42,469 nt of DNA from an uncultured Porphyromonadaceae bacterium (lineage in GTDB: Bacteria; Bacteroidota; Bacteroidia; Bacteroidales; Muribaculaceae), in contig URQP01000006.1 in assembly GCA_900550025.1 (NCBI GenBank), forward strand, positions 1 to 42,469. The letters are read 5' to 3'. The notes beneath the pieces were generated by a model. That model did not search any database. It was given only the letters and a program-made list of their open reading frames with translations, and was not told the DNA's origin. Shown in pieces: positions 11,445 through 37,566 of this stretch. The translations under genes were made by a program, and so were the position numbers. Position 1 is the stretch's first letter. Every line of letters starts with the position of its first letter.

Positions 11445-14400
11445 ATGTATTGTAAAGGTCGTCTGAAATATGTTTTGCCGTTTGTGGCAGGGGTGGTGTT
11501 TTGCTTCTTCTGCGGCTTTTTCAGCTATGCGCAGTATAAAAAGCCGGAAGTAGCGCCTCCTCCGTCGGTTTTTACGGGTAAAAGTGCGGAAACAGGAGAT
11601 ACCTCAGCCACGCATTTTGAAGTAAAGCCGACCATCACACCCGGTTATGATGAATTGCTTGGTAACAATAAGCCTGCGGTCGATTTAAGGGATCCGTCAA
11701 ATATCACGACGGAAGCTGTATATGACAATGAAACAAATTGTTACATTATCCATACGAAAATTGGTGACCGTGAAATAAGCACTCCGTTCATTCTTTCAGC
11801 AGATGACTATAATAATATGGAGCTGCGGAAGTCGATGATGGAATATTACCGTCAGAAGAATGCGGAACTTTATGAGAATAAAGGCAAGGAAAAATTCAAT
11901 ATCTTTGATATGAAGTTTTCTCTCGGTCCGCTTGAAAAAGTGTTCGGACCGGGTGGCGTGCAACTGAAGACGCAAGGGTCTGTGCAGGTGCAGATGGGAA
12001 TAAAGTCGAACAAAACCGATAATCCGGCATTGCCCGCAAGCGCGCGTCGTAAGACATATTTTGATTTTGACCAGAAAATACAGGCAACCATAGATGCGTC
12101 GGTAGGTGATAAGTTGAAATTCAATATGTCGTATAATACAGACGCCACTTTTGATTTTGATTCACAAAATCTGAAGTTGCAGTATGAGGGGAAAGAAGAT
12201 GAAATCATTAAAAGTATAGAGGCTGGTAATGTCTCGATGACTACAGGCTCATCACTGATAAAGGGAAGCACGGCTTTGTTCGGTTTGAAAACTAAATTAC
12301 AGTTTGGAAAACTGACAGTCACTGCGTTAGTGTCACAACAAAATTCAGAGTCGCAGACTGTCAATACGAAAGGTGGCGCCCAGACGACTTCCTTCTCCAT
12401 TAATGCAGACGATTATGACAAGAACAGGCATTTTTTCTTAAGCCATTATTTCCGTGACCATTATGATGAGTTCGCGTCGAAATTGCCTTATGTCTCGTCA
12501 GGTATCAGTATTACCCGTATTGAAGTTTGGATTACTAATCAGCGCGGTACGTATGATGAAGCCCGCAACATTGTCGGTTTTATGGATATTGGTGAAAACC
12601 ACATCCTCTCGAATACGCATTGGATTACCGATTTGTCGACTGATGTGCCGAGCAATAATTCTAACAACCTGCTTTCGGAAATAAAAAACAATTATCCTGA
12701 CGCGCGCTATATAAGTCAGGTATCTCAGGTGCTTGACCCTCTTTCTGCTTATGGTATTGAAGGAGGACGCGATTACGAGAAAATCGAGAGCGCGCGGTTG
12801 CTTTCTTCTTCTGAATACCGCCTGAATGCTTCTTTGGGCTACATTTCGCTTAATTCGGCTTTAAATGCAGATGAAGTGCTTGCTGTGGCCTATGAATATA
12901 CTTATCAAGGCCGTGTATATCAGGTAGGTGAATTTTCTAATGACGTGTCCGACACTCAGCAGTCGTTATATCTGAAATTGCTTAAAGGCTCGACCGTCTC
13001 TCCTAAATTCGCCAATTGGGATTTGATGATGAAGAATGTGTATTCGCTTGGCGCATATCAGGTTCAGAAACAAAATTTCAAGTTAAACATCAAGTATCTC
13101 AACGATACAACGGGTACATCGGTGCAATATCTTCCGGTTGACCCTATACGGAGTACACCATTGCTGCGTGTGATGAATCTTGACCGCCTTGATTCTAATG
13201 AGGAAACAAATCCTGATGGTTTCTATGACTTTATAGAAGGTTATACCGTTATTTCGTCACAAGGGAAAATTATATTTCCGGTTGTAGAACCGTTCGGCTC
13301 GCATCTTGAAAGTAAGATTACCAATAAAGAGGAAGCCAAAAAATATGTGTATCACGAACTTTATGATTCGACACAAACTGTAGCCAAACAGTTTCAGGAT
13401 AAGAATAAATTTGTGATGGAAGGCGAATATCAGGCTTCTTCCGGCTCTCAAATACGATTAAACGCGATGAATGTCCCGCGAGGCTCGGTTGTTGTCACCG
13501 CGGGGGGCGTAACACTTACGGAAAATAGCGATTATACTGTCGACTACAATATGGGTATTGTGACCATATTGAACCAGAGCATTATAGATTCGGGAACGAA
13601 TGTCAGCGTATCGTTGGAAAATCAGTCATTATTCAGCATGCAACGGAAGACTTTGTTGGGGCTTGACTTGAATTATGCGTTCAACAAGGATTTCAATGTC
13701 GGGGCTACAGTGATGCATTTTTCAGAAAAGCCTATTACTGAAAAAGTCAATGTCGGTGACGAGCTTATTAATAATACCATTTGGGGACTTAATTTTTCGT
13801 ATAATAAAGAATTTATGTGGCTCACGAATCTTGTAAATAAGATTCCTACAGTCAATGCCACCGCACCGTCGACAATAAGCATGCAGGGGGAATTTGCCCA
13901 ACTAATACCGCACAAGAAAGAGACGGGTTCAAATTCTGGCAGTTCGTATCTGGATGATTTTGAGTCATCGCAAAATACCATAGATATCCGTTCTCCTTAT
14001 TCGTGGTTCCTTGCTTCTACGCCGTACGATCCTTCAGCCGACGCATTGTTCCCGGAAGCGGCTTTGTCGAACAATATCGACTATGGAAAGAACAGGGCGC
14101 TGCTGTCATGGTATTATGTTGACCGTATGTTCACGCAACGTAATTCCTCGCTTTGTCCAGCTTATATAAGAAACGATTTGGAACAGTTGTCGAGTCCTTA
14201 TGTCAGGGAAGTGACTACGCGCGAGATTTGGCCTAACCGTGAGTTGAACTATGGGGAGGCTTCGGCTATACAGACTTTGAACCTGTCGTTTTATCCTGAA
14301 GAAAGAGGCCCTTATAATTTGGATGCAGAAAACATTGACGAGAATTTTAATCTCTTGAATCCTGAAAAACGCTGGGGCGGAATAATGCGGAAATTGGATA

Positions 14401-17400
14401 ATACGGATTTTGAGACATCCAATATAGAATACATACAATTTTGGATGATGGACCCATATTCTGTCGAAGGCGACGATAATCCGGGCGGAGATCTTTATTT
14501 CAACCTTGGAGAGGTGAGTGAAGATATATTGAAGGATGGTTTTAAGTCTTATGAGAATGGTTTGCCTATTGATGGCAGTGCAGGGTCGATGCGGGAAACT
14601 GTATGGGGGCGTGTGCCTACAGAAACTTCTCTTACATATGCGTTCGACAACACGGCAGGAGCCCGCGTCAATCAGGATGTAGGACTTGACGGACTTATTA
14701 ATGACGATGAGTATGTGTTTTCTTCATATCGTGATTATATCGAGAAATTGCGGTTGAAATTGTCGCCTACAACAATAGCGGCTCTTGAGGATGACCAGTT
14801 CTCCCCATTCAATGACCCGGCCGGCGATAATTACCATTATTACCGTGGCTATGATTACGATGAGCAGCAGGCATCCATATTGGAACGTTATAAGCATTAT
14901 AACGGAATGGAAGGCAATTCGTTAGGGGAGGACGATAATCGTGACGGATTGTACCAGTCCTCAAGGAGTGTCCCCGACGTAGAGGATATAAATCAAGACA
15001 ACACGCTGAATGAATATGAACGTTATTACCAATATCATATTTCTTTGAGGAAAAGCGACCTTGTTGTCGGCCAAAATTATATAACAGACAAGCAGACATC
15101 TACTGTAACGCTGCGTAACGGGCAGACCTCGGATGTGACATGGTATCAATTCAAGATTCCATTGAAAGATTATGAGAAAGTTGTAGGTTCTATCTCGGAT
15201 TTCTCTACGATACGTTTCATACGTATGTTTATGACCGGATTCCGCCAGACTACTCATTTGCGCTTTGCTACGCTTGAATTAGTGCGTGGAGATTGGCGCG
15301 TATATGATTATAATCTCAATTCCCGGGCAGATACTCCGGCAGAAGGGCAGCTTGATATGTCAGTTGTAAATATTGAGGAGAATTCAGGCCGCCAGCCGGT
15401 CAACTATGTGTTGCCTCCGGGGGTGAACCGTATTGTCGATCCGGGACAGTCGCAAATCACGCAGCTTAACGAGCAGTCGCTTTCTTTGAAACTAACGGAT
15501 TTGAAAGCCGGTGATGCCCGGGCGGTGTATAAGAATACGACTTTGGACTTACGTCTGTATAAGCGGTTGCAAATGTTCAGCCATGCGGAACGGTTGATTG
15601 ATGATATCAATGGAGAGCTTGTAGATGGCGATTTGTCGGTGTTCCTCCGTTTGGGTACTGACATAAAAAATAATTATTACGAGTATGAAGTGCCGTTGAA
15701 ACTGACACCACATAATGAAAATGGCACACTATATAATACGTATAGCACGACAGACCAGTACATAGTATGGCCGCAAGAAAATTTTATGGACATCAACCTT
15801 GATGTATTTACCGATTTGAAGAAAGCCAGAAATGTAGCCAAGAATGAAGAGGGCAGCAGTGTGAATTATACGACAGTGTATTCAGATTACGACCCGGAAC
15901 ATCAGGGTAATAAAGTCAGTGTGATAGGTAATCCGTCATTGAGCGATGTGAGAGTTGTGATGATAGGTGTTCGTAATAATTCCAGCAGGGGAAAAAGCGG
16001 GGAAGTCTGGGTGAACGAAATGAAGGTGACTGACTTCAATGAAGATGGAGGTTGGGCGGCAAAGGCTAATATCAATCTTGGGGTAAGTGATATCGCTACT
16101 GTGAACTTTGGCGGTCATATCGAGACTGTCGGTTTCGGAGGAGTAGACCAAAGCCTTGCAAACCGCCGGTTGGACGACTATAAGCAATACAATGTGGCGA
16201 CACAGGTGGATTTCGGGCGGTTCCTTCCTGAAAAAGTGAAACTGAAAGCTCCTGTATATTATTCTGTCACGAAAGAAAAAATATCGCCTAAATATAATCC
16301 TTTGGATCAGGACATATTGTTGAAAGACGCTCTTGACAACGCCGCTACCGAGCAAGAGCGAGATTCAATAAAGAATTATGCGATAGAGCAATCTACTGTC
16401 AAAAGTTTCAGTGTGTCTGGATTGAATTTCGGTGTCACCGGCAAGAACCCGATGCCTTGGGATCCTGCTAATTTTACCTTGAATGTCTCTTTCAATAAGC
16501 AGGAGAATATTTCACCGACAATTGAATACGAGCGTATCAATGATTACCGGGGAAGTTTCCAGTACAGTTATTCTCCGTATTTCAAACCATTCAAACCGTT
16601 TTCTTCTTTAAAAAGCAAATCTAAAAATGTGAAATTCTTGAAAGATTGGGAATTCAACTATTTGCCTACGTCAATAAATTTCTTGACTAATATGTCGCGC
16701 TATTATTATGAAATGCAATCGCGTAACGAGGCGGATGTAGATGTCGATATTCCTGTTTCTGTCAGTAAGAATTTTTATTGGGACCGTCAGTTCGCTCTGA
16801 ACTGGAATATAACCAAATCGTTGTCGCTGTCGTTCAATTCAAATACGATGGCGCGCATAGAGGAAGCTATGGGGGCTGTAAACAAAAAACTGTTTCCTGA
16901 CAAGTATAAGGAATGGAGAGATACGGTAATGAACAGCATCAAAGGTTTCGGTACTCCGTGGAACTACGACCAGACTTTTACGGCCACATATAAGGCTCCT
17001 TTCAATAAAATACCATTCCTTGATTTCCTGAATGCCAATGCCAGCTATAATGCCACATACCAGTGGGACCGCGGGGCGGAAGTTGAAGGGGAGACTGTCG
17101 GAAACTCGATAGCCAATAATGGAGTGTGGAACGTGGATGGCAAATTTAATTTCGAGACACTTTACAATAAAAGCAAATATTTGAAAGAAGTAAACAAGCG
17201 TTTTGCTTCTAATGCGCGGAAATCGGCACCGAAGAAACCGAAAAAGTTTCAGCGCACTTATCAGCTGAAGGACACGTTGATTGATGTAAGGCATAATCTT
17301 AGAACTAAAAAACTGATAATCAAAGCCACCACTTTGCAGGGAAAGCCTTTCCCGCTGAAGACAAAAATTGTTGATGACAATAATATCCAAATCCTTACGA

Positions 17401-18890
17401 CTGGTAAAGAGAGTGTGAAACTTGTAATTACCGAAGATTTGAAAAAGGATAAGAATATTTGGAAGGAAATTGGCGACCATGCCGCACGTTTTGCGATGTC
17501 GGTGCGCAGCGCAAGTTTTAAATGGCGTGATACGCATACTTCGAATATATCCCAATTTATTCCTGAAGTTGGAGATATGCTCGGACAGAGCCGCAATTAC
17601 GGACCGATGTCGCCCGGATTGGATTTTGCATTCGGGTTTACGGACGAAAGCTATCTGGACAAGGCCATTGACCGTGGTTGGCTGTTGCGTGATGCCAATT
17701 TGACAACACCTGCTATATTTGCGAAGACAACGGAATATACATTTGAAGTTCAGCTTGAGCCTATACGTGGCTTGAAAATACAGCTTACGGCAAACCGTAC
17801 AGATAACCGTACAAATCAGGTGCAGTTTATGTACGACAATATGCCTGTCACACGTACGGGAAGTTTTACAATGACCACATGCGCCATTTCGACGGCACTG
17901 CGTGGCTCATCTGCAAAAGATGGCTATAGCAGCAAGACTTACGACAAGTTCCTGAGCTATATTCCTCAGGTGGCAAACCGTCTTGAGGGAATATATGCGG
18001 GCAAACAATATCCGGTATCAGGATTCTTGGAAGGGACATCATATGCCGGGAAAGTTTATGATAGTGCAAACGGAGGGGTGGACCAAGCTGGCAGTGATGT
18101 GATGATTCCGGCATTCCTTGCCGCTTATACCGGCAAAGACCCGAATAAGGTCACATTGTCGCCATTTCCGTCGTTGGCACAAATACTGCCTAATTGGCGT
18201 GTGACATACGACGGCTTGGTAAAAATCGGGAATTTGAATAAGATATTCCGTAGTCTTACTTTGACACACGCATACCAGTGTACCTACAATGTCGGTTCGT
18301 TCACATCATATCTTAATTGGATTGGAGTTGACGGAGATTACGGTTTTACGCTTGACGAGTTGACGCAACGCCCTGTGCCGTCTTCTCCTTATAACATCTC
18401 ATCGGTGACGATTACCGAGAAATTTGCTCCGCTAATAGGTGTTTCGGCCACTCTTTACAATAATCTTACGCTAAATGCGGAATATCGCGATAGCCGGACA
18501 TTGTCGCTTAATTCAGATGCCGGACAGCTTGTAGAGGCGACACAAAAAGGGATAACAGTAGGGGCAGGGTATAAGATAGCAAATTTCAATACTGTCTTGA
18601 AAATGAAAGGTAAGCAGTCGGGTGTCAGCAACGACCTTACTATAAATGCTGATTTCTCGTTGCAAAACACTCAATCAATTATCCGCCGTATACAGGAGGG
18701 AACGAATCAGGCTACGAGCGGGACAAAGTCGATAGCAATAAATGTTACTGCCAATTATGTGTTGAGCAAGCGTATCACTCTCTCCGCTTTCTTCGACCAT
18801 CAGATTAACAAGCCGTTGATTTCGTCCACTGCTTATCCTACGACTAATAGTAACTATGGTATTTCCGTGAATTTGTCATTAGCAAGATAA
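11445..18890 (+). CDS. sprA: SprA/Sov, T9SS outer membrane translocon
   Basis: SprA is the giant outer membrane barrel through which T9SS cargo leaves the periplasm. At 2481 residues the product has the size expected of the family. A signal peptide ends at about FSYAQ (residue 30). The N-terminal SprA region contains FDMKFSLGPLEKVFGPGGVQ and the GDKLKFNMSYNTDATFDFD segment. Around residue 835 is the characteristic SSYLDDFESSQ. The rest is dominated by repeated aromatic-rich amphipathic strands typical of this barrel, ending NYGISVNLSLAR. The frame is intact over 7.4 kb. ruvA lies 5 bases before and a membrane glycosyltransferase gene 4 bases after, so all three are probably on one transcript. 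Confidence 0.96.
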   Translation: MYCKGRLKYVLPFVAGVVFCFFCGFFSYAQYKKPEVAPPPSVFTGKSAETGDTSATHFEVKPTITPGYDELLGNNKPAVDLRDPSNITTEAVYDNETNCYIIHTKIGDREISTPFILSADDYNNMELRKSMMEYYRQKNAELYENKGKEKFNIFDMKFSLGPLEKVFGPGGVQLKTQGSVQVQMGIKSNKTDNPALPASARRKTYFDFDQKIQATIDASVGDKLKFNMSYNTDATFDFDSQNLKLQYEGKEDEIIKSIEAGNVSMTTGSSLIKGSTALFGLKTKLQFGKLTVTALVSQQNSESQTVNTKGGAQTTSFSINADDYDKNRHFFLSHYFRDHYDEFASKLPYVSSGISITRIEVWITNQRGTYDEARNIVGFMDIGENHILSNTHWITDLSTDVPSNNSNNLLSEIKNNYPDARYISQVSQVLDPLSAYGIEGGRDYEKIESARLLSSSEYRLNASLGYISLNSALNADEVLAVAYEYTYQGRVYQVGEFSNDVSDTQQSLYLKLLKGSTVSPKFANWDLMMKNVYSLGAYQVQKQNFKLNIKYLNDTTGTSVQYLPVDPIRSTPLLRVMNLDRLDSNEETNPDGFYDFIEGYTVISSQGKIIFPVVEPFGSHLESKITNKEEAKKYVYHELYDSTQTVAKQFQDKNKFVMEGEYQASSGSQIRLNAMNVPRGSVVVTAGGVTLTENSDYTVDYNMGIVTILNQSIIDSGTNVSVSLENQSLFSMQRKTLLGLDLNYAFNKDFNVGATVMHFSEKPITEKVNVGDELINNTIWGLNFSYNKEFMWLTNLVNKIPTVNATAPSTISMQGEFAQLIPHKKETGSNSGSSYLDDFESSQNTIDIRSPYSWFLASTPYDPSADALFPEAALSNNIDYGKNRALLSWYYVDRMFTQRNSSLCPAYIRNDLEQLSSPYVREVTTREIWPNRELNYGEASAIQTLNLSFYPEERGPYNLDAENIDENFNLLNPEKRWGGIMRKLDNTDFETSNIEYIQFWMMDPYSVEGDDNPGGDLYFNLGEVSEDILKDGFKSYENGLPIDGSAGSMRETVWGRVPTETSLTYAFDNTAGARVNQDVGLDGLINDDEYVFSSYRDYIEKLRLKLSPTTIAALEDDQFSPFNDPAGDNYHYYRGYDYDEQQASILERYKHYNGMEGNSLGEDDNRDGLYQSSRSVPDVEDINQDNTLNEYERYYQYHISLRKSDLVVGQNYITDKQTSTVTLRNGQTSDVTWYQFKIPLKDYEKVVGSISDFSTIRFIRMFMTGFRQTTHLRFATLELVRGDWRVYDYNLNSRADTPAEGQLDMSVVNIEENSGRQPVNYVLPPGVNRIVDPGQSQITQLNEQSLSLKLTDLKAGDARAVYKNTTLDLRLYKRLQMFSHAERLIDDINGELVDGDLSVFLRLGTDIKNNYYEYEVPLKLTPHNENGTLYNTYSTTDQYIVWPQENFMDINLDVFTDLKKARNVAKNEEGSSVNYTTVYSDYDPEHQGNKVSVIGNPSLSDVRVVMIGVRNNSSRGKSGEVWVNEMKVTDFNEDGGWAAKANINLGVSDIATVNFGGHIETVGFGGVDQSLANRRLDDYKQYNVATQVDFGRFLPEKVKLKAPVYYSVTKEKISPKYNPLDQDILLKDALDNAATEQERDSIKNYAIEQSTVKSFSVSGLNFGVTGKNPMPWDPANFTLNVSFNKQENISPTIEYERINDYRGSFQYSYSPYFKPFKPFSSLKSKSKNVKFLKDWEFNYLPTSINFLTNMSRYYYEMQSRNEADVDVDIPVSVSKNFYWDRQFALNWNITKSLSLSFNSNTMARIEEAMGAVNKKLFPDKYKEWRDTVMNSIKGFGTPWNYDQTFTATYKAPFNKIPFLDFLNANASYNATYQWDRGAEVEGETVGNSIANNGVWNVDGKFNFETLYNKSKYLKEVNKRFASNARKSAPKKPKKFQRTYQLKDTLIDVRHNLRTKKLIIKATTLQGKPFPLKTKIVDDNNIQILTTGKESVKLVITEDLKKDKNIWKEIGDHAARFAMSVRSASFKWRDTHTSNISQFIPEVGDMLGQSRNYGPMSPGLDFAFGFTDESYLDKAIDRGWLLRDANLTTPAIFAKTTEYTFEVQLEPIRGLKIQLTANRTDNRTNQVQFMYDNMPVTRTGSFTMTTCAISTALRGSSAKDGYSSKTYDKFLSYIPQVANRLEGIYAGKQYPVSGFLEGTSYAGKVYDSANGGVDQAGSDVMIPAFLAAYTGKDPNKVTLSPFPSLAQILPNWRVTYDGLVKIGNLNKIFRSLTLTHAYQCTYNVGSFTSYLNWIGVDGDYGFTLDELTQRPVPSSPYNISSVTITEKFAPLIGVSATLYNNLTLNAEYRDSRTLSLNSDAGQLVEATQKGITVGAGYKIANFNTVLKMKGKQSGVSNDLTINADFSLQNTQSIIRRIQEGTNQATSGTKSIAINVTANYVLSKRITLSAFFDHQINKPLISSTAYPTTNSNYGISVNLSLAR

Positions 18891-23817: not shown

Positions 23818-26229
23818 ATGAAAAAAACTTTTTTGACAGTATTGTCGTTTATCTTGCCGGCTATTGCTTTTTCCAACACTGAATGGGGTGCGGCAGACAC
23901 GGTGGTCTGCTATAATGTTGGACCGGGTATTGAGTATATGAAAATAATCTATCCAGATATGCCACTTATTATCTGGTACACCACTATTGATCTTACCAAC
24001 GAGTATAATAAAGTGGAAAATGTTGTGAGCCGTCATCAGGTACCGGATGTTGACCGTTGGGATGTGATGACGCATTATCGTGAAAATTCCTATGACGGAC
24101 ATAATGTGCGTGTGGCTTGGAATCATGATTTTTTCGTATATGAGCAAGGTATATGCATAGGGGCAAATGTTTCTAACGGGCAGATGACTCATCACCGTGG
24201 CGGACGGTCGTTGTTGGCTATAACTTCAGATAAAAAAGCTGAGGTATTTCTCCAGAATTTTGACACAAAAGTGATAACTGAAGATGCGGAGGTGGTGATA
24301 GACAGTTATAATAGCGGTGCTTCGGAATTTGACGGCGATTGCATTTTTTTCAACACTCTCAATTCTCAGATATTGTTTATGGATGGAAAATACGTAAAGG
24401 TCAAAGCTTTGTCTGATTGGATTGTTAACGGCAACAATATACCGTGTGAAGTGTTGGAAATTTCGGATTCTCCGCTGCAGACTTCTTCGACGGAATGTGT
24501 CATATATCTTAGAAATGGCAAAGTTGACGCATTGGATGGCTTGTCAGTTGGTGATAGGATTGAGATTCAGCAGAAATTATTGCCGTCGGCATGGGGTACA
24601 GCGCCTGAAAACATATTGAACGCATTTCATGGCTATCCGAGCATAGCCCATAACGGCGTTTTGCACGAAGGTGAATATGACAACTTCGAGGGTGGGCGTG
24701 AATATGAAAAGTCGTCGCATGTAATGGCCGGGATTTCGAGAGACAAGACAAAATTGTATGTTTGTATTAACGAGATGTCATCGCAAAGCGTATCCATAGA
24801 TTGTGTGGAAATGGCTGAATGGATGCTTGAACGTGGGGCTTGGGACATTGTTAATTTTGACAGCGGTGGTTCTTCGGCTATTGTTGTAAACGAAGAGATG
24901 CTCAATCTTCCGGGACGCGGGTCGGTTCGCCCGGTGCAGGACGCAATGCTGGCAGTATCGCTTGCTCCTGACGACACTACTGTTGATTACTTGACATTCA
25001 GTAAGCGGAAATTCTGTTGCTCAACAATTTCATCTATGCCATTGAAAGTAATATCATATAATCAATACGGTGACATAGTGGATGACGGTGTGGAGGGATG
25101 CTCTTTTTCTGTTATTCCTGAAAATATGGGATGGGTTGATGAAAACGGTGTGTTCTTTTCTTCTGCGATACAAGGCGCAGGTAAAATAATAGCAGAGAAA
25201 GATGGTTTGCAATGTACGATACCATTTATTTCATATCAAGTGGAGTCCGTCACGTTGCCATTCTCTGAATTACTGATAGATTCCACAAGAAAATTTATTA
25301 TTCCACTGCAAGGGATGGTTAATGGATTGGTTAAGGAGCTTGACCCATCAGCATTTGAATGGATAGCTGATGACCCTGCTGTGGTGTCAGTGGAAGACGG
25401 GATAGTGTCAGGGTTGAAAAATGGAGAGACTAATGTTACAGGTACTTTCGGGAATCTGCAATTCTCTTTTAAAGTAAAAGTAGAGATAGGGAAAGGCTTG
25501 GTTTCTTGCCATGATTTTTCAGATTTGCCTGAATCGGGAAAACTTAATGGAGTTGAAGGTATGACATTGCGTAGTGATTTGCCGGACGGATGGGCAGACG
25601 GCTCGTATTTCAATGTGGAATCGGTCAGCGGTCGTTTGCGCCAAATATCCATAGATTTTCCCCAGACTTTGTATGGCATTCCCGATGGGCTTTCATTGCC
25701 TATATGGAACAATGATGGAGTTGTCAGCCGTATAACTCTTTCTTATTATGACTATGATGGGGAACGTTATTTGGCTGATATTGATATTGACCCGACAGAC
25801 AAGGTGTATGATATCGACTTTTTGGATTCAGAAGGCAATCCGTTAGAACTATTGAAATATCCTGTGCGTTTGTCCTCAATGAACATTTATTTAAATTCAG
25901 GGAATAATAAGAATTTCGCTCTTGGCAATCTGATGGTGCGCTATCCACTTGATAGTGAGGGCGGTATTAAAGAGTTGGAAAAAGATGCCAGATTAAGTCT
26001 GCTTGTAGGCGCGGAAACGTTGACTGTAAATTATGAGGCAGTGTCTGATGGCAATGCAACTGTACGGATTTATTCTTCGTCAGGTGTAAATGTGGTGAAC
26101 AGAACTATGCCGTTGATGCAGGGTTCTAACAGTTATACTATTAATACTAAATTCCTTACATCCGGGCTGTATGTTGTTATGTTTGAGAATAATGGTATTA
26201 CAAGTTGTGAAAAATTCATAATCCGTTGA
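23818..26229 (+). CDS. Secreted phosphodiester glycosidase with T9SS sorting domain
   Basis: An 803-residue secreted multidomain protein. A signal peptide ends near FILPAIAFS (residue 19). Residues about 85-385 match the phosphodiester glycosidase (NAGPA/DUF2233) fold, with FDGDCIFFNT at 171-180 and the hallmark NFDSGGSSAIVVN at 346-358. Residues 395-555 look like one or two Ig-like domains; the second has the Big_2-type pattern VSVEDGIVSGLKNGETNV. Residues 560-715 are an unassigned beta-rich region, possibly sugar binding. The last 75 residues resemble a type A T9SS sorting domain (ATVRIYSSSGVNV, LTSGLYVVMFENNG, CEKFIIR). The enzyme probably removes a sugar from a phosphodiester on glycans at the cell surface; the substrate is unknown. 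Confidence 0.82.
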   Translation: MKKTFLTVLSFILPAIAFSNTEWGAADTVVCYNVGPGIEYMKIIYPDMPLIIWYTTIDLTNEYNKVENVVSRHQVPDVDRWDVMTHYRENSYDGHNVRVAWNHDFFVYEQGICIGANVSNGQMTHHRGGRSLLAITSDKKAEVFLQNFDTKVITEDAEVVIDSYNSGASEFDGDCIFFNTLNSQILFMDGKYVKVKALSDWIVNGNNIPCEVLEISDSPLQTSSTECVIYLRNGKVDALDGLSVGDRIEIQQKLLPSAWGTAPENILNAFHGYPSIAHNGVLHEGEYDNFEGGREYEKSSHVMAGISRDKTKLYVCINEMSSQSVSIDCVEMAEWMLERGAWDIVNFDSGGSSAIVVNEEMLNLPGRGSVRPVQDAMLAVSLAPDDTTVDYLTFSKRKFCCSTISSMPLKVISYNQYGDIVDDGVEGCSFSVIPENMGWVDENGVFFSSAIQGAGKIIAEKDGLQCTIPFISYQVESVTLPFSELLIDSTRKFIIPLQGMVNGLVKELDPSAFEWIADDPAVVSVEDGIVSGLKNGETNVTGTFGNLQFSFKVKVEIGKGLVSCHDFSDLPESGKLNGVEGMTLRSDLPDGWADGSYFNVESVSGRLRQISIDFPQTLYGIPDGLSLPIWNNDGVVSRITLSYYDYDGERYLADIDIDPTDKVYDIDFLDSEGNPLELLKYPVRLSSMNIYLNSGNNKNFALGNLMVRYPLDSEGGIKELEKDARLSLLVGAETLTVNYEAVSDGNATVRIYSSSGVNVVNRTMPLMQGSNSYTINTKFLTSGLYVVMFENNGITSCEKFIIR

Positions 26230-34221: not shown

Positions 34222-35148
34222 ATGAAAAACGAAAGTCTTGTTTCCATCTCCGATTTCTCGAAAGAGGAAATTCTGGAATTGCTCGACAATATGCGCTATT
34301 TCGAGGCAAATCCAAATAGAAGGTTGCTTGAAGGAAAAGTCGTTGCAACTTTGTTTTTTGAGCCGTCGACACGTACGCGGCTCAGTTTTGAAACGGCAGT
34401 AAACAGATTAGGCGGCCGTGTGATAGGATTCTCCGATGCAAGCACTACCAGCTCGTCAAAAGGTGAGACATTGAAAGATACCATAAAAATGGTAGGCAAT
34501 TATGTCGACCTGATAATTATGCGCCATTATTTGGAAGGAGCGGCGCGCTATGCATCTGAGGTCTCGCGTGTGCCAGTCATAAATGCAGGAGACGGAGCAA
34601 ACCAGCATCCTTCACAGACGATGCTTGATTTATACTCCATATATAAGACTCAGGGCAAGCTCACGGATTTGACGATAACTATGGTCGGTGACCTGAAATA
34701 CGGACGGACTGTGCATTCTTTGCTTATGGCAATGTATTATTTCAATCCTACGTTCAATTTCGTGGCTTGCGATGAATTGAAGATGCCACAGGAATACAAG
34801 GACTTTTGCGACCAGCACGGAATTAAATATACGGAAACGACAGATTTCTCCGAAGAAGTCATAAATAACAGCGACATAATATATATGACGCGTGTACAGC
34901 GTGAGCGTTTCACCGATTTGATGGAATATGAACGTGTCAAGAATCTTTATACGTTGCATAATTCGATGCTCGACGGAAGTAAGGACAATGTGCGCATACT
35001 GCATCCTCTTCCGCGTGTGAATGAAATTTCACAGGATGTGGATGATAATCCGAAGGCATATTATTTCCAACAGGCACAGAATGGACTGTATGCCCGTCAG
35101 GCCATCATTTGTAAGGTTTTAGGTATAGATATTGATAAGGAGGCATAG
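34222..35148 (+). CDS. pyrB: Aspartate carbamoyltransferase catalytic subunit
   Basis: PyrB condenses carbamoyl phosphate with aspartate, the committed step of pyrimidine synthesis. The 308-residue product has the carbamoyl-phosphate site [15 protein letters not shown] near residue 48, the loop [16 protein letters not shown] (conserved Ser and Lys), the [18 protein letters not shown] motif, the aspartate-site TRVQRERF, and [10 protein letters not shown]. Length matches the E. coli-type catalytic chain. pyrI begins 2 bases after the stop, so the enzyme should be the regulated dodecamer of catalytic and regulatory chains. Confidence 0.97.
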
Positions 35149-35150
35149 CG

Positions 35151-35615
35151 ATGGATAACAATAAAGAACTTGCGGTAGCTGCTTTGTGTAATGGTACTGT
35201 CATAGATCATATCCCGACTGATTCCCTGTTCAAGGTGGTAAGTCTGCTCGATATTGAGAATATAAGCAGCAGTGTCACGATAGGTTATAATCTTGACAGC
35301 AAAAAACTTGGGAAAAAAGGCATTCTGAAAGTGGCCGATGTCTATTTCCCGGAAGAGAAACTCAACCGCTTGGCGTTGATAGCTCCCAATGTGAATGTCA
35401 ATATCATAAAGGATTATAAGGTTGTAAAAAAATATAAAGTTGCGTTGCCTGATGACATAATGGGTATTGTGAAGTGCAATAATCCTAAGTGCATTACAAA
35501 CAACGAGCCGATGCTGACACATTTCCACGTGGAAGATAAGGACAATGTTACACTTCGCTGCCATTATTGTGAGCGCACAGTCGTAAAAAACGATATAGTT
35601 TCATGTTGTCGATAA
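35151..35615 (+). CDS. pyrI: Aspartate carbamoyltransferase regulatory subunit, altered C-terminus
   Basis: PyrI binds nucleotide effectors and, through a zinc domain, holds the PyrB trimers together. The 154-residue product has the allosteric domain ([35 protein letters not shown]) and the four zinc cysteines Cys109, Cys114, Cys137 and Cys140 (CNNPKC and CHYC). The last five residues (VSCCR) are odd: they are encoded by DNA that, in another frame, belongs to a second copy of a PyrI C-terminus. The gene's own last few codons therefore seem to have been lost at that junction. The zinc site is intact, so the protein is probably functional. Confidence 0.93.
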
Positions 35616-35685
35616 GGAACAGGGTATTCTGAAGTGTCACTATTGCGAAAAGGAACAGCAGAAAGATAACATAAAATTGATTTAA
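35599..35685 (+). pseudogene. Remnant 3' end of a second pyrI
   Basis: Reading from 35599 in the +1 frame relative to pyrI gives 28 codons and a TAA stop: [18 protein letters not shown], then EQQKDNIKLI. It aligns without gaps to residues 125-150 of the intact PyrI ([18 protein letters not shown] and on) with 13 of 26 positions identical, including CHYC. A TAG directly precedes it in frame and no start codon is available, so it is not expressed as PyrI. It looks like the tail of a replaced or duplicated pyrI. Confidence 0.8.
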
Positions 35686-35694
35686 TATATTATT

Positions 35695-36264
35695 ATGAAG
35701 CAAGACTGGAAGCCCGGAACGATGATTTATCCGTTGCCTGCCGTACTGGTGGGTTGCGGGACTTGTCCTGATGACTACAATTTGATAACAGTTGCATGGA
35801 CAGGCACGATTTGTACGAATCCGGCTATGTGCTATATATCCGTGCGTCCTGAACGTCATAGCTATGAGCTGATAAAACGGACGATGGAATTTACGTTGAA
35901 TCTTACTACGGAATCTATGGCGAAAGCTGTCGACTGGTGCGGGGTAAGGTCGGGGAAGGACTATCATAAGTTTGTTGAGACAGGTTTGACGCCGGTAACG
36001 GGCAATATGGTTTCAGCTCCTTGTGTGGAGGAATCTCCATTGTCAATAGAATGCCGTGTTAAGGAAATCGTAAAATTAGGTTCACATGATATGTTTGTAG
36101 CCGATGTGCTATGTACGGATGCCGATGAATCCTTGATTAACAAGGAAACCGGAGCTTTCGATTTGGAATCGGCACGGCTTATCGCATATTCGCATGGGCA
36201 TTATTACAAGTTGGGCGAAGAAATTGGAAAGTTCGGCTGGTCAGTTCAGAAAAAACAAAAATAA
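35695..36264 (+). CDS. Flavin reductase family protein
   Basis: A 189-residue protein of the flavin reductase-like, FMN-binding split-barrel family. Features are the N-terminal YPLPAVLVGCGTC, the FMN-binding stretch NLITVAWTGTICTNPAMCYISVRPERHSYELI, FTLNLTTESMAKAVDWCG and the C-terminal AYSHGHYYKLGEEIGKFG. Such proteins reduce or carry flavin, and some act as ferredoxin-like electron carriers; the partner is unknown here. It begins 9 bases after the pyrI remnant and ends 21 bases before glyA, so the three genes may be co-transcribed with pyrBI. Confidence 0.9.
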   Translation: MKQDWKPGTMIYPLPAVLVGCGTCPDDYNLITVAWTGTICTNPAMCYISVRPERHSYELIKRTMEFTLNLTTESMAKAVDWCGVRSGKDYHKFVETGLTPVTGNMVSAPCVEESPLSIECRVKEIVKLGSHDMFVADVLCTDADESLINKETGAFDLESARLIAYSHGHYYKLGEEIGKFGWSVQKKQK

Positions 36265-36285: not shown

Positions 36286-37566
36286 ATGAGAAGAGACAAT
36301 GCTATTTTCGACATTATCGAGCGTGAGCATCAGCGTCAGAAAAAAGGTATAGAACTGATTGCTTCCGAGAATTTTGTCAGCGACGAGGTTATGGAAGCGA
36401 TGGGGTCGTGCCTTACGAATAAATATGCGGAAGGCTATCCCGGACACCGTTATTATGGCGGTTGTCAGGTCGTTGACGAAGCTGAGTCGCTTGCGATAGA
36501 GCGTGTGAAGCAACTGTTCGGCGCGGAATATGCCAATGTGCAGCCGCATTCCGGAGCGCAGGCCAATATGGCCGTGTTTATGGCTGTGATGAAACCGGGT
36601 GATAAGTTCTTAGGCTTGAATTTGTCGCATGGCGGGCATTTGAGCCATGGTTCACCGGTTAATTTCTCGGGCCTGATGTTCCACGCGTTGGAATATGGTG
36701 TGAAAGAAGATACTGGCTATGTGGACTATGATATGATGGAAGAGGTGGCTTTGCGTGAGCGTCCGAAATTGATTATCGGCGGGGCAAGCGCTTATTCCCG
36801 CGAATGGGATTATGCACGGATGCGCAAGATTGCCGACGAGATAGGGGCTATCCTTATGATTGACATGGCTCATCCTGCCGGTCTGATTGCCGCCGGATTG
36901 CTTGACAATCCGTTGAAATATGCTCATATCGTTACTTCAACCACCCATAAGACGCTGCGCGGCCCGCGTGGTGGATTGATTCTTATCGGCAAGGATTTCG
37001 ATAATCCTTGGGGCAAGACTACTCCTAAAGGCGTGATTAAGAAAATGTCGGCATTGATTGATTCTGCTGTGTTCCCCGGTGTGCAAGGCGGTCCGCTTGA
37101 GCATGTGATAGCTGCTAAGGCTGTGGCATTCGGCGAGGCATTGCAGCCTGAATATAGGGATTACCAGATGCAAGTGAAGAAGAACGCCAAGGCTATGGCC
37201 GACGCTTTGATAGCTAGAGGTTATAAGATTGTGTCCGGTGGAACTGACAACCATTGCATCCTCGTTGATTTGCGCACACGTTTCCCGGAACTTACCGGCA
37301 AGGTGGCAGAAAAGGCACTTGTTGATGCTGACATAACGGCCAATAAGAATATGGTGCCTTTCGACAGCCGCTCGCCTTTCCAGACTTCTGGAATCCGTCT
37401 TGGAACTCCGGCTATTACAACCCGGGGTGCAAAAGAAGAATTGATGGGCGAGATAGTCGAAATGATAGACACCGTATTGTGCAATCCTGAGAATGAGGCA
37501 GTAATAAAGTCTGTGCGTGAAAAGGTTAATGCCACAATGAAGGATTATCCGATGTTCGCGTATTGA
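36286..37566 (+). CDS. glyA: Serine hydroxymethyltransferase
   Basis: GlyA interconverts serine and glycine with transfer of a one-carbon unit to tetrahydrofolate, using PLP. The 426-residue product shows [20 protein letters not shown] near residue 22, [17 protein letters not shown], the cofactor site [27 protein letters not shown], and the Schiff-base Lys222 in [15 protein letters not shown]. Length and motifs are fully standard. The ATG at 36286 gives the usual N-terminus ([18 protein letters not shown]). It is followed by an intrinsic terminator. Confidence 0.98.

Follow-up and report, generated by a model that had tools for sequence, protein, structure and literature searches.

A Phocaeicola-type DNA patch behind pyrI in a Muribaculaceae contig and its possible origin by one-sided-homology recombination

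In the contig studied here, pyrI, the gene for the regulatory chain of aspartate carbamoyltransferase, is followed by a second PyrI C-terminus in another reading frame. Such an arrangement raises the question of which of the two C-termini is native, where the other one came from and by which process they were joined. The locus was analysed within its window, i.e. the whole stretch of 42,469 nucleotides, and the features discussed below are collected in Table 1.

Table 1. Positions of the features at the pyrI/flavin-reductase boundary and of the flanking genes in the window.
Feature	Position	Strand	Description
pyrB, aspartate carbamoyltransferase catalytic chain	34222-35148	+	Resident; Pfam OTCace_N/OTCace; 97% amino acid identity to L001 and L032
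pyrI	35151-35615	+	154 aa, ending ...NDIVSCCR; Pfam PyrI and complete PyrI_C; resident to about 35597-35600, final SCCR codons and stop being donor sequence read out of frame
Left junction	35592-35601	+	Window GATATAGTTT versus donor GACATGGTTT, 8/10 identical
Maximum donor patch	35598-35741	+	143/144 bases as in G690, difference at 35621
Minimum donor patch, 109 nt	35598-35706	+	Through the donor-type GAC codon 4 of flavin reductase
Second PyrI C-terminus (tail)	35599-35685	+	28 codons and TAA, +1 frame; predicted not to be translatable alone
Flavin reductase	35695-36264	+	Pfam Flavin_Reduct; start region donor-type, resident from about codon 16-17
Right homologous cross-over interval	35707-35741	+	Stretches shared by donor and congeners
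glyA, serine hydroxymethyltransferase	36286-37566	+	Resident flank; Pfam SHMT; 96-97% amino acid identity to L001/L032

The two C-termini and the resident locus

The second C-terminus, referred to below as the tail, could be aligned without gaps to PyrI residues 125-150, and 13 of the 26 residues were identical. When shuffled tails (n = 2000) were compared with PyrI in the same way, the number of identities was 5.9 on average and never exceeded 10, which bears out what the first-pass annotation had seen in the +1 frame. At the DNA level 43 of 84 nt were identical between the tail and the first copy. The first copy carries both PyrI domains: PF01948 matched residues 7-97, and the metal-binding domain PyrI_C (PF02748) matched residues 103-149 over profile positions 2-48 of 48, so that this domain is complete. 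The zinc domain of PyrI thus appears intact, and the C-terminal LK would have been exchanged for SCCR. The gene and the scrap behind it are both PyrI (PF01948, PF02748); unlike a full PyrI, the scrap consists of the last 28 codons only, lacks a usable start and covers just the second half of the four-cysteine site. In the frame of the tail a TAG lies directly upstream, ATG and GTG do not occur, and the sole TTG is found two codons before the stop of the tail. Because of the preceding TAG and the absence of ATG and GTG, separate translation of the tail is improbable, and it is probably an inert, untranslated scar.

The native state of the locus was determined by comparison with related sequences. 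A scan of genome contigs yielded 39 loci, and the gene ends were compared in 17. The four genes pyrB, pyrI, flavin reductase and glyA follow each other in line in the window and have the same order in L001, from an uncultured Muribaculaceae bacterium, and in L032, from Candidatus Limisoma faecipullorum (genome G001). The amino acid identities to L001 and L032 were 97 and 97% for PyrB, 95 and 93% for PyrI, 89 and 89% for flavin reductase and 96 and 97% for serine hydroxymethyltransferase. In both loci pyrI ends in DIVLK and a stop codon, and the flavin-reductase gene begins 3 and 1 nt later, respectively. The DNA of the window was collinear with G001 on either side of the junction (83% upstream, 86% downstream). 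Closer still were two protein sequences, P0001 (representative of a cluster of 16 sequences; 99% identical to the PyrI of the window) and P0003 (without a difference in the 135 columns that were compared; 15 internal residues are deleted), which both end in ...VVKNDIVLK and lack a tail. On the basis of their identity, P0001 and P0003 were taken to represent the window's own species. In a tree of the PyrI body (25 rows) the window grouped with P0003, P0001, L032, P0002 and L001 (support 100/99). A separate second tail behind PyrI was found in none of the 128 loci with a PyrI body (131 were examined, some genomes having been fetched twice); L122, one of the 128, gave two tail hits, which overlapped each other.

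Because of the identity to relatives, the collinear flanks, the placement in the tree and the lack of a second tail in the 128 loci, the intact pyrI is, on the sequence evidence, the resident gene. The first-pass annotation had assigned the roles the other way round, taking the intact gene for the import and the tail for what the old gene had left behind; the flanks and the intact pyrI are instead of the resident lineage, and the tail is Phocaeicola DNA (see below). It had also held that its reading would be refuted if relatives had an unbroken pyrI that no homologous tail follows, and this is what the relatives have. Taken together, tail-free relatives and an identified donor point to either a strain-specific insertion or an artefact, and not to nothing at all.

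Elsewhere the window encodes a protein of 2481 residues with Pfam matches to SprA_N, a motility/secretion family (11445-18890), and another that combines a Por_Secre_tail sorting domain with an NAGPA domain (23818-26229).

Donor and edges of the patch

The origin of the tail was assessed with protein and DNA searches. In a tail-weighted protein search its 28 residues were 100% identical to residues 125-152 of Phocaeicola PyrI; the sequences with a 100% tail match include P0267 (MULTISPECIES Phocaeicola) and P0268, P0283 and P0308 (Phocaeicola coprocola). At the DNA level, 61 genomes of the genus of G552 were searched, of which 59 gave a match; the best was G690 with 98% over 153 bases, and the next reached 80%. 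Over positions 35598-35741 the window agreed with G690 at 143 of 144 bases, including an uninterrupted stretch of 120. The sole mismatch, at 35621, yields a Gln, as in the named Phocaeicola PyrI sequences examined. The PyrI of G690 differs from P0267 by one residue, and G690 would thus be Phocaeicola-type. The patch DNA is missing from P0001, P0003, L001 and L032 and is foreign to the recipient lineage. The donor was most likely a Phocaeicola resembling P. coprocola, from a family other than that of the recipient, and the assignment is to the level of genus. Tandem duplication within pyrI, against which the first-pass annotation had already argued, is ruled out by the second copy being DNA of another genus, with 143 of 144 nt identical over the patch.

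A donor inside the Muribaculaceae had been considered on the basis of a scan of 297 genomes of the family, in which G125 gave the best match to the tail (82%); this candidate was dropped once G690 gave 98%. The contig of G125 that carries the match (L076, G125:C35:8000-22000) is listed in the family of the Limisoma-like genomes and, across the 6 kb examined, resembled G690 most. Its identity to G690 was 96% for PyrB and 95.5% for serine hydroxymethyltransferase, compared with 73-80% for three genomes of the genus in which it is listed; the contig is probably mis-binned.

The patch begins within the end of the donor pyrI, includes the spacer and reaches into the opening codons of the flavin-reductase gene. 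The foreign stretch is longer than the second copy at 35599-35685 described in the first-pass annotation and extends from 35598 to a point between 35706 and 35741, inside the flavin-reductase gene. Of the residues VSCCR, which had been ascribed to the second copy read out of frame, this holds for SCCR only, and Val150 is also the native residue in P0001, P0003, L001 and L032. The flavin reductase starts with MKQDW in the window and in the donor, and with MKQVW in P0121, its closest relative (97%; representative of 77 sequences), so that codon 4 specifies the Asp of the donor and not Val. From 35742 onward the window leaves the donor and follows the resident lineage. Together with the donor-type codon 4 this places the cross-over within 35707-35741. 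In this interval the donor is identical to the congener G001 over 28 nt (35714-35741) and to the congener G002 over 14 nt (35707-35720); these lengths compare the donor with G001 and G002, not with DNA of the same species. The right edge of the patch thus lies in homologous sequence.

The left edge is of a different kind. The window tracks the donor from the G of GTTT onward, where the two congeners have GTGC and GTCT, and GT at 35598-35599 alone is common to the donor and both congeners. Native and donor DNA therefore share 2 nt for certain, the native bases to the right of the break (35600-35601 among them) being taken from congeners; the shared stretch would be longer only if the species natively has GTTT. 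Of the six bases upstream, 4 match, and a match of at least 4 out of 6 was obtained in 4.5% of 20,000 random pairings. Microhomology or homeology at the left edge is thus suggestive at most, and the join lies at short or no homology. A single-strand fold of 35560-35740 (DNA parameters) was not stronger than that of shuffled sequences (z 0.71).

As a result of the patch 79 nt separate the stop of pyrI from the start of the flavin-reductase gene, compared with 1-3 nt in the relatives, and the gene would now carry the leader of the donor. The interval from the last Val codon to the following ATG, 13-15 nt long in G001 and G002, has become 97 nt.

Natural patch, chimera and other explanations

We moderately favour a natural event in which Phocaeicola DNA was patched into a Limisoma-like Muribaculaceae cell with homology at one side, a weighing that is a matter of judgement and was not computed. 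A short piece of DNA from a P. coprocola-like Phocaeicola would have entered the cell; a shared stretch on the right, 28 bp or somewhat longer, would have anchored strand invasion, and an illegitimate join about 75 nt out of register would have closed the left end. In this way 97 nt would have taken the place of 13-15 nt of native sequence, lengthening the locus by about 82-84 bp and leaving a patch of 109-144 bp between the resident pyrI and flavin-reductase genes. The native DNA at both breakpoints is represented in this scheme by congeners and by proteins taken as same-species only, and the junction is known from one sequence. The earlier idea that recombination brought together pyrI alleles of two lineages, homologously on one side and at short homology on the other, agrees with the edges found.

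The alternative of most weight is a chimera of the library or the assembly, which, again by judgement and not by computation, we regard as possible, at clearly less than an even chance. A Limisoma-like contig would have jumped to Phocaeicola reads at the at least 28 identical nt of the flavin-reductase start, and the left side would have been closed by a chimeric read or a merge at short overlap. Common assembly k-mer lengths are about that of the shared stretch of 28 nt or more, and the right edge falls exactly where the two species share such a stretch. The near-identity of the patch to the donor is also expected of an artefact from a mixed sample, and comparable singleton oddities occur in metagenome sequences of the family (P0003, P0083, P0146). 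No second occurrence of the junction was found: it was absent, with up to 2 mismatches allowed, from 397 genomes of the family, a weak test since only 4 of these are of the recipient's genus and apparently none is of the window's species (their PyrI is at most 95% identical to that of the window), and viral contigs gave 0 matches. On the other hand, the exact overlap at the left join is a few nt at most, which is too short for a k-mer path, so that this rival also requires a chimeric molecule or a scaffold merge. Moreover, the flanks on both sides are of the same lineage and in normal order. A second switch to donor sequence was not seen over the 12.0 kb of window sequence alignable to the G690 pieces compared: beyond the patch, exact matches ran to 25 nt at most (120 inside it) and the best 100-nt stretch was 87% identical. 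The scan is silent on the ~30 kb that do not align with these pieces at the DNA level. Searches for further Phocaeicola patches in the window gave matches of 64-74% and one 42-nt match of 86%; in searches of this type a short patch goes unseen when it is embedded in a longer alignment, and the known patch itself lay within a match of 72%. Two further explanations carry far less weight. The order of events first proposed, in which a Phocaeicola-type pyrI was present and a resident-type pyrI (or pyrBI) recombined in later, leaving the old tail as a scar, would yield the same final structure, with the right edge stemming from the earlier import. However, it requires two transfers rather than one, the resident pyrB, pyrI and flanks appear vertically inherited, and the closest sequences carry the resident tail; we consider it very unlikely. 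A functional extension, in which frameshifting links the second half of a zinc domain to PyrI, is more improbable still, to the point of being negligible. Just before the junction the sequence A_AAA_AAC (35585-35591) has what we take to be the form of a -1 slippery heptamer. The tail, however, sits in the +1 frame, and a -1 shift at this site reaches neither the native frame nor that of the tail. The TAG directly before the tail, the half-site of cysteines, the lack of such a tail in the 128 PyrI loci and the fold, which is no stronger than that of shuffles, argue in the same direction, and a programmed frameshift to a longer PyrI was dropped on the grounds of frame, stop codon and lack of conservation.

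Rearranged pyrI sequences, real or not, do occur in metagenome data of this kind. P0003 is a singleton in which the window's own PyrI allele has lost 15 internal residues, and in P0083, a singleton on a contig of 819 bases, the zinc-domain half of PyrI is duplicated internally; both are possibly assembly errors. In P0146 (316 residues, single contig of 5.2 kb) PyrI is cut at ...EPMRTYFNV and fused in frame to flavin reductase, a mirror-image deletion at the same pyrI/flavin-reductase boundary.

Relation to known recombination systems

Since the right edge lies in strong homology and the left join at short homology, the edge pattern is, as read from the sequence, the hallmark of homology-facilitated illegitimate recombination (HFIR). 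In the passages of PMC3240628 and PMC6382021 that deal with it, HFIR is described for natural transformation of Streptococcus pneumoniae, Acinetobacter baylyi and Pseudomonas stutzeri and, at low efficiency, for conjugation in E. coli. As in these systems, one end of the foreign DNA lies in homology and the other is joined illegitimately. Unlike in these systems, the present case would be a possible natural scar in an uncultured member of the Bacteroidales in which competence is only putative, the anchor is just ~28 bp or somewhat more, and the tract is just ~0.1 kb. HFIR presupposes uptake of linear DNA, by competence or conjugation, and depends on RecA. The Pfam Competence family (ComEC-type) was found in G002, G003, G028 and the donor G690 and not in G001, a family that also matches 10 of 14 control genomes, including E. 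coli, so that its presence says little about competence. A search of the open-access literature for Muribaculaceae and natural transformation gave no title on competence of this family; for the Bacteroidetes, natural transformation is described in Riemerella.

Short-patch double illegitimate recombination (SPDIR) proceeds with microhomology at both ends. It also places a very short foreign segment in the position of a few native bases. Unlike in SPDIR, the right end has extended homology here, and this process fits the locus less well. The term SPDIR does not occur in the main text of PMC5312590. A comparison of strains within three species ascribes, in the parts relevant here, much small-scale diversity to illegitimate recombination and draws a homology-assisted model (PMC2884548). 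The small variable segments, or microdiversity, treated in these parts resemble the present patch in being short, strain-specific and ascribed to illegitimate recombination; they concern strains within a species, whereas the donor here is from another family and is pinned to the genus. The kind of event is thus already known, and the present case would be a further instance, if reads confirm it.

Should the junction be an artefact, it would show that a conserved stretch of ~30 bp beside a gene end can create a false gene fusion. Should it be real, it would represent a natural scar of the HFIR type across families, whose two edges are located to a precision of a few tens of bases and whose donor is assigned to the genus. 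We tentatively propose, at somewhat less than even confidence, that uncultured gut Muribaculaceae take up naked or vesicle-borne DNA of neighbouring Phocaeicola and stitch in patches of ~100 bp via a one-sided anchor of ~28 bp or somewhat more, the opposite side having little or no homology, and that HFIR-like patching across families is active in the animal gut, leaving partial-gene scars that are missed by gene-level scans for horizontal transfer. A real junction would then allow one to ask how often gut Bacteroidales swap patches too short to be detected by gene-based methods.
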